Part shown: positions 20,330 through 42,389 of the stretch, piece after piece | How the letters are laid out: every line of letters begins with the position of its first letter | Numbering within the stretch: the first letter of the stretch is position 1 | Assembly: GCF_003600355.1 (NCBI RefSeq) | Contig: NZ_CP032416.1 | Coordinates: 2,686,183-2,750,182 of the forward strand | Direction: 5' to 3' | Source: Clostridium fermenticellae | GTDB lineage: Bacteria > Bacillota > Clostridia > Clostridiales > Clostridiaceae | Length of the DNA stretch: 64,000 nucleotides | Translations under genes and position numbers: made by a program | The notes under the pieces: generated by a model | What the model saw: only the letters and a program-made list of their open reading frames with translations | The model's database searches: none | Told to the model about the DNA's origin: nothing

Positions 20330-20406
20330 TGGTAGCGGAAATAGGACTTGAACCTACGACACTCCGGGTATGAACCGAACGCTCTAGCCAGCTGAGCTAT
20401 TCCGCC
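20330..20406 (-). tRNA. tRNA-Met (CAT), elongator, copy A
   Basis: GGCGGAA acceptor paired with TTCCGCT, D-arm GCTC/GAGC, anticodon loop TTCATAC, T-arm GTAGG-TTCAAGT-CCTAT, encoded CCA. It differs from copy B at a few bases near the anticodon stem: the lower stem pair here is T-G where copy B has T-A. Confidence 0.96.
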
Positions 20407-20418
20407 ATATATTCTTTT

Positions 20419-20494
<76 letters not shown>

Positions 20495-20505
20495 ATATTT
20501 TAATT

Positions 20506-20594
20506 TGGTGCTGAAGACCGGAATCGAACCGGTACGGGTTTTAAAGCCCGCAGGATTTTAAGTCCTGTGCGTCTGCCAGTTCCGCCACTCCAGC
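20506..20594 (-). tRNA. tRNA-Leu (TAA), copy A
   Basis: An 89-nt class II tRNA with acceptor GCTGGAG/CTTCAGC, anticodon stem CAGGA/TCCTG with loop CTTAAAA (anticodon TAA), a long variable arm (CGGG...CCCG) and encoded CCA. Confidence 0.97.
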
Positions 20595-20601
20595 ACAATA
20601 T

Positions 20602-20678
20602 TGGTAGCGGAAATAGGACTTGAACCTACGACATTTCGGGTATGAACCGAATGCTCTAGCCAGCTGAGCTATTCCGCC
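20602..20678 (-). tRNA. tRNA-Met (CAT), elongator, copy B
   Basis: Same structure as the copy 272 bp away; the anticodon stem TTCGG/CCGAA is fully Watson-Crick paired. CCA is encoded. Confidence 0.96.
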
Positions 20679-20690
20679 ATATATTCTTTT

Positions 20691-20766
<76 letters not shown>

Positions 20767-20777
20767 ATATTTTAATT

Positions 20778-20866
20778 TGGTGCTGAAGACCGGAATCGAA
20801 CCGGTACGGGTTTTAAAGCCCGCAGGATTTTAAGTCCTGTGCGTCTGCCAGTTCCGCCACTCCAGC
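20778..20866 (-). tRNA. tRNA-Leu (TAA), copy B
   Basis: First gene of the six-tRNA operon; identical in sequence to copy A at 20506-20594 and 272 bp from it. Confidence 0.97.
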
Positions 20867-41557: not shown

Positions 41558-41638
41558 TATAATTAACAACATTTAAGTGCGTAAAATACCTCTAGTATGG
41601 TAATAATATTATTAATTACCTTATTGGAGGTGTTTTTC

Positions 41639-41953
41639 ATGAAAAATTTTCTAATGTCTGCTGGTATAGATATCGTATTTATTTTTGTATCATATTTTCT
41701 ATTTAGAGAAATAATCAGGGGTCCGATACGCCATAAGATGTACGAAAAACTCTTTAGCTCATTTGCTAAATTTATTATTACTATTTTTTTACTGTCTATA
41801 ATAATAACCTCTGCTGCAGCATATATTCTTTATAAAACAAGATATCTAACATATATAAACATAATAGCATCTGCACTCGTATCAATATTAGTTGGTTTTC
41901 TCATATCATTGGTACCAACTAGAGGTGTGGATGATGAAAAAGATAAAATCTAA
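41639..41953 (+). CDS. Small integral membrane protein, unknown function
   Basis: A 104-residue protein from ATG 41639 (GGAGG eight bases upstream); the frame opens at 41597 but lacks a site there. Three hydrophobic segments (about 6-22, 42-62 and 71-92) and a charged C-terminus (TRGVDDEKDKI). I recognise no domain. It sits 82 bp after murC on the same strand, and a small membrane protein is often found at this place in clostridia. A cell-envelope role is only a guess from context. Confidence 0.7.
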   Translation: MKNFLMSAGIDIVFIFVSYFLFREIIRGPIRHKMYEKLFSSFAKFIITIFLLSIIITSAAAYILYKTRYLTYINIIASALVSILVGFLISLVPTRGVDDEKDKI

Positions 41954-41984: not shown

Positions 41985-42245
41985 TATAGGGTTTGTGATT
42001 CTAAGCTTAACTTAGCTTCTAGCCGGGATTTCTAAAATTCAGGCACATTAAAAAATTTTGTAGTAAGTATTAGCGAGGCGTTCTTGAAAGTTTTAGTAGA
42101 TTTTATATGTCTGAGCGCAGCGAGTTTATAAAATCTGCTTAGACTTTTATGAACGCAAGCTTACACTTACTAGAAATTTTTTACGTAACGTATTTTGGGA
42201 ATCCCGGCTGGAGCATAAGTTAAGCTTTCATTTACAAACCCTATA
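41985..42245. repeat. 261-bp imperfect inverted repeat (long hairpin element)
   Basis: The two halves (about 41985-42108 and 42126-42245) are complementary over most of their length with bulges. Matching blocks include TATAGGGTTTGT/ACAAACCCTATA, AAGCTTAACTTA/TAAGTTAAGCTT, AGCCGGGATT/AATCCCGGCT, TAGTAAGT/ACTTACTA, GGCGTTC/GAACGC and AGATTTTATA/TATAAAATCT. The centre is CTGAGCGCAGCGAG. No open frame of note lies inside. The shape suggests a non-autonomous mobile element or a structured RNA. Together with short AT-rich flanks it fills the 360 bp between the membrane protein and tRNA-Pro. Confidence 0.85.
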
Positions 42246-42313: not shown

Positions 42314-42389
42314 CGGGGTGTGGCGCAGATGGGAGCGCGCGTGGTTTGGGACCATGAGGTCGCAGGTTCAAGCCCTGTCACCCCGACCA
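42314..42389 (+). tRNA. tRNA-Pro (TGG)
   Basis: CGGGGTG acceptor paired with CACCCCG, D-arm GCGC/GCGC, anticodon loop TTTGGGA (anticodon TGG), T-arm GCAGG-TTCAAGC-CCTGT, encoded CCA. C1-G72 is typical of bacterial tRNA-Pro. Confidence 0.96.

Follow-up and report, generated by a model that had tools for sequence, protein, structure and literature searches.

What is the imperfect palindrome that stands upstream of a tRNA-Pro gene in Clostridium fermenticellae: a non-autonomous mobile element, a structured RNA, or the folded boundary of a transcript? The original prediction, made from the letters of a 64,000-nucleotide stretch of this genome (NZ_CP032416.1, positions 2,686,183 to 2,750,182; "the window"), put forward all three. 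The element itself is as it had been described, 261 bp from the first T of TATAGGG at 41985 to the last A of CCCTATA at 42245. Folded as RNA, its + strand gives a single long hairpin with bulges, at -128.7 kcal/mol where shuffled sequences reach -57.4 +/- 4.4 (z = -16.3). It is also non-coding, as claimed: the ORF upstream stops at 41953, and no ORF of more than 80 aa lies within 41985-42245. The features of the locus are as follows.

41985..42245, + strand: full-length subfamily A palindromic element; the element strand is the + strand of the window, carrying TTTGAGC..GCGAGTTT at the apex
41985..41997, + strand: left terminal inverted repeat (TIR), TATAGGGTTTGTG, from the end profile of 46 copies and the 13-mer count
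41985-41986, + strand: presumed duplicated target dinucleotide TA, left; outermost bases of the left TIR
42233..42245, + strand: right TIR, TACAAACCCTATA, from the end profile of 46 copies and the empty-site comparison
42244-42245, + strand: presumed duplicated target dinucleotide TA, right; outermost bases of the right TIR
41985..42111, + strand: left hairpin arm, from the fold and the pairing alignment
42112..42127, + strand: apex motif TGAGCGCAGCGAGTTT, common to long hairpins of other clostridial genera with unrelated arms
42128..42245, + strand: right hairpin arm, from the fold and the pairing alignment
41597..41953, + strand: small membrane-protein-like ORF upstream, with its stop 31 nt before the element (context only)
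42314..42389, + strand: tRNA-Pro (TGG), the first gene downstream, 68 nt past the element and where the prediction had it (context only)

Rfam recognised only tRNAs in the window, 41985-42245 giving no covariance-model match at the gathering score, and plasmid and phage records held no match to the element at distant-blastn sensitivity. Elsewhere in the window, a tRNA cluster (Met, Met, Leu) is present as a tandem duplicate, 20330-20594 and 20602-20866 (20330-20866 overall).

Far from being a single copy without homologues whose stem mutates at random, the picture that the original prediction had set against an element, the hairpin proved on searching the genome and other clostridia to belong to a family with many copies, at different intergenic sites and with paired arms. 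About 731 kb of the 2.82-Mb genome was read, in stretches chosen because they hold copies. A single query recovered at least 40 copies of full length, 82-91% identical to it; the first 633 kb read contains 91 copies of at least 200 bp (47 of subfamily A, 44 of subfamily B), together with 22 from a related subfamily, C, and numerous fragments. In all, this genome carries well above a hundred copies of the palindrome, which is small, gene-less and apparently mobile. All copies examined are intergenic, and in the stretches read any overlap of an A, B or C copy with a called ORF is of 20 nt or less, ORFs being mechanical calls and gene names being read off their translations.

Copies have well-defined ends. 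Across 46 that were aligned, conservation covers TATAGGG and CCCTATA and stops at the next base outward; the 257-bp body, TAGGG...CCCTA, has TA on both sides in most copies. The TIR 13-mer TATAGGGTTTGTA occurs exactly 96 times genome-wide, its reversed control not at all. A total of 101 TIR-bounded elements form a size ladder with the same ends, at 260 bp (57 copies), about 145, 120, 105 and 58 bp; minimal elements of 41 bp (G000 C1:360759-360799 and 1212839-1212879; L245, L252), which are little but the two TIR ends, are probably remnants of palindrome deletion. At G000 C1:108127-108642 and 374307-374807 an A and a B copy abut end to end and have the junction TA in common, a pattern suggesting that one copy inserted into the end of another already in place. 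One B copy lies apparently within the loop of a terminator-like hairpin (G000 C1:2059653-2059980; L214), between flanks GAACGTACC...GGTACGTTC.

Orthologous sites that lack the element bear on how it arrived. In the congener G001 the interval between pfkA-like and pykF-like genes has no element, and its flanks align with ours. The occupied site reads CATATTAATT-TA[TATGG...CCCTA]TA-ATTACTTGTAAAT, with AATT at the end of the flank before the TA; the empty site of the congener reads ...CTAATT-TA-ATTACTTATAAAT. This comparison, the sole base-exact one, fits what insertion at TA with duplication of the TA would produce. Four further orthologous intervals (894093, 930036, 815856 and 1102810) are element-free with junctions that are not base-exact, and the 1102810 site, where a TA duplication would need an extra TA, is ambiguous. 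Paralogous empty sites sought within the genome yielded none that was usable. We regard the evidence for TA-type insertion as good but not complete. Of the three options, that of a non-autonomous mobile element is supported by the many copies, sharp common ends, short derivatives, empty orthologous sites and TA flanks.

A mobilising enzyme was sought in this genome among two families: neither an IS630-type DDE_3 transposase nor a Y1_Tnp (IS200/REP-type) is present, and control genomes matched both as expected. Genes adjoining orphan TIRs in this genome include no transposase-like ORF; they look like ordinary host genes, and on this ground we rejected the idea that orphan TIRs mark the ends of an autonomous IS. 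With no related DDE_3 transposase in the genome, the family was not filed as IS630-derived. Nor was it placed with REP/REPIN-RAYT or IS200/IS605 elements: the Y1/TnpA HUH protein is absent, and the palindrome is about 260 nt long with TATAGGG ends, not 20-40 nt with a GTAG/CGTC tag. In being non-coding and, at 257-261 bp, shorter than about 600 bp, with fixed-end TIRs and copies dispersed at non-homologous sites, it has several of the properties by which MITEs are defined. We claim no MITE parentage; the parent is possibly extinct or outside the two families searched.

The orientation of a copy is well defined, the two arms differing at fixed places. Nearly every copy is "-" within the first 1.4 Mb and "+" in the remainder, and the GC skew measured at these loci changes sign between the two halves. 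With replichores inferred from the skew and the contig layout, and the replication origin placed likewise near the contig start, 78 of the 91 full-length A/B copies are oriented against the replication fork (78:13, p = 1.8e-12). For copies faced by no gene 3' end the ratio is 12:0 (p = 5e-4); beside a leading-strand gene end it is 54:4, versus 12:9 beside a lagging-strand one (Fisher p = 5e-4). Replication is therefore not the sole determinant, and a second, weaker rule sets copies antisense to the gene whose 3' end adjoins. Replication alone was rejected as the cause once gene 3' ends had been scored, and gene direction alone is rejected here by the 12:0 and 12:9 ratios. Subfamily C (9:13) was dropped as an unbiased control, C hairpins being inverted pairs inside larger elements. 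The window copy follows replication against the local gene direction; its location at a change of strand bias, to which the prediction gave weight, is not what matters, the family being genome-wide. Orientation tied to replication is known for Tn7 and several IS families (PMC5371812).

Position relative to genes is also uneven. Copies between tandem genes lie at a median of 42 nt from the upstream stop and 132 nt from the next start, and 35 of 45 are closer to the stop (p = 2e-4). To that extent, copies clustering just past stop codons, the notion of a folded transcript boundary was apt in part. The clustering also favours a reading in which the element spread by mobility and has since been adopted by the host, selected as RNA and held in one polarity past stops because its transcript acts on the stability, termination or 3' ends of RNA; bacteria generally enrich stem-loop families at gene 3' ends (PMC1590033). 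The 12:0 polarity of copies that no gene 3' end faces speaks against it. So does the lack of a U-run, none following the ends in the profile of 46 aligned copies. A terminator beyond the element was seen in only three of 45 cases, not regularly.

The same reading draws on arm pairing. When 65 A/B copies are aligned, 96.3% of cells are paired, against at most 49% once the partners are slid; the covariation test that had been proposed gave changes on both sides in 29 of 78 pairs, versus 17.8 in shuffles. These changes need not come from selection on RNA. One bulge of 4 nt, near the outer arm, still differs between the two arms in 41 copies, whereas about 18 of the 65 are homogenised, 11 having the left version in both arms, three the right, and three a third version (a fourth nearly so). 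Several converted copies have private variants in both arms (TAATGCACAGG/TAATGCACAGG; CTATGCGCAGG/CTATGCGCAGG; ...GACCAGG/...GACCAGG). Private variants and whole tracts shared by the two arms imply that one arm has been copied tract-wise from the other. Imperfect palindromes are known to mutate by template switching (PMC8794818, PMC7202029), a process that maintains stems (PMC8794818), and here, to judge from these sequence patterns, it would explain the covariation without selection on RNA. As for a structured RNA, then, pairing is indeed kept with compensatory changes, but their tract-wise pattern points to arm-to-arm copying in DNA replication.

A further point for selection as RNA is strand stability: in 97-100% of A, B and C copies the complement makes a less stable fold than the element strand. 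The asymmetry may reflect common ancestry; we did not take it as a universal sign of the RNA strand, since it is missing from some other genera, and the transcript of the adjoining gene bears the less stable strand.

Relatives of the hairpin are found beyond this genome. Long hairpins with the apex TTTGAGC-N-GCGAGTTT and unrelated arms occur in other genera of the family and beyond it, the backward-read control of this pattern not being independent because the motif is nearly mirror-symmetric. The congener G001 carries subfamily C-like hairpins, and also a 1236-bp non-coding element with its own TIRs, AATTCGTAATATGCATATATTGCGTATYAAGCATTG, in inverted copies 97-99% identical (L143:795-2030 and L143:8625-9860). 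Close to one end of this element lies a subfamily C hairpin, and close to the opposite end a long hairpin of another kind. In our genome, C hairpins often form inverted pairs about 1.0-1.3 kb apart, with no net polarity. Of the 90 apexes in genome G020, many belong to inverted pairs with a spacing of 280-560 bp, located between genes or following them. Hairpins of this class are seen, for example, at C26:18550-19088, C26:34939-35460 and C27:225085-225436. All 27 scored gene-3'-end copies in G020 are antisense to the adjoining gene, which again suits a host-adopted RNA element; in G034, 10 are antisense versus two sense. At one G034 locus (L232, C1:418486-418975), three apex hairpins stand in direct tandem at 237-bp spacing. 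The heptamer d(GCGNAGC) forms an unusually stable DNA mini-hairpin; some apexes match it (GCGCAGC here) and others do not (GCAAAGC, GCCTGC). Taking the points on both sides, we hold selection as an RNA 3'-end element to be a tentative alternative, distinctly less probable than mobility with arm copying.

A single-strand element of the REP-RAYT or IS200/IS605 kind, inserted into the lagging-strand template by an HUH/Y1 enzyme that recognises hairpin and apex, would suit the strong replication polarity, the hairpin, the conserved apex, the gene-end sites and the inverted pairs of G020, which resemble REP/BIME arrays. Yet Y1_Tnp finds no match in a genome whose controls behaved as expected, symmetric TIRs, TA flanks and a base-exact empty site that fits TA duplication are not IS200/IS605 features, and the hairpins are of about 260 nt against 20-40 nt; we consider this origin very unlikely. 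Least probable is a chromosome-architecture signal, in which oriented repeats would be retained for a host factor of replication or segregation that recognises their polarity: the switch near 1.4 Mb is genome-wide and coincides with that of GC skew, but polarity is only 12:9 beside lagging-strand genes, the congener does not conserve the sites, and the copies are long, divergent and partly degraded.

The hairpin is, in our judgement, very probably a copy of a high-copy palindromic, MITE-like non-autonomous mobile family, and we extend the same confidence to the following account of its insertion, polarity and arms. A transposase acting in trans, of a family now absent or unrecognised here, would have cleaved at the TIRs, with new copies integrating at TA dinucleotides. 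Insertion would have been coupled to the fork, through the clamp or lagging-strand targeting, and tolerated mainly at gene ends, or else the other orientation would have been selected against. During replication the nascent strand could fold back and copy one arm from the other, so that the arms stay complementary and covariation arises, and slippage across the palindrome would give the short derivatives. Two observations sit badly with a simple MITE account: a plain DDE mechanism is not expected to give a near-symmetric TIR element strong replication polarity, and an apex common to unrelated-arm hairpins in other genera is not predicted. Because of these, the lack of any parental transposase found and the nearly complete palindromy, we treat the family as a variant and not as a plain MITE member.

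The apex invites a bolder conjecture, which we offer with more doubt than confidence: that a widespread class of clostridial hairpins of about 170-290 nt is defined by its conserved apex (TTTGAGC-N-GCGAGTTT, often d(GCGNAGC)), the arms being replaceable via template switching, and that the apex is read by a mobilisation or 3'-end-processing machinery, neither Y1 nor IS630, that fixes polarity to gene ends and replication. Should such a class hold up across genera, there would be a mobiliser or 3'-end factor still to be recognised. With around 100 long palindromes as natural replicates on a single chromosome, and a polarity to replication and gene ends that can be measured, it becomes testable how a near-symmetric element gains replication polarity and how imperfect long palindromes persist. 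The arm-conversion tracts are a warning that repeated hairpins can covary without RNA function.

Compared with known systems, the family resembles the prokaryotic MITEs Chunjie, QMITE2, ERIC and RUP (PMC10969869) in being short, gene-less, TIR-bounded, intergenic and present in many copies, with internal deletions and a putative TA-type target signature; unlike them, it is almost entirely one palindrome with 120-bp arms and strong replication and gene-end polarity, has no detected parental transposase, and shares its apex with unrelated-arm hairpins of other genera. It recalls REP, BIME and REPIN sequences with their Y1 protein RAYT (PMC2817692, PMC3116915) as high-copy extragenic palindromes near gene 3' ends, in inverted pairs in one relative genus, but it is about ten times longer, has TIRs with a TA signature, and lives in a genome without Y1_Tnp. 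The stem-loop families of low-GC Firmicutes (Efa-1, Clop-1, Clot-1; PMC1590033, PMC2267715) are likewise intergenic, fold as stem-loops and prefer gene 3' ends; the present element differs in length from those listed for C. perfringens and C. tetani, which are 31-93 bp (PMC2267715). Lastly, as with Tn7-TnsE, IS200/IS605 and the clamp-interacting IS families (PMC5371812), orientation follows the direction of replication; those elements encode their own transposase, whereas here the bias belongs to a nearly symmetric non-autonomous palindrome.
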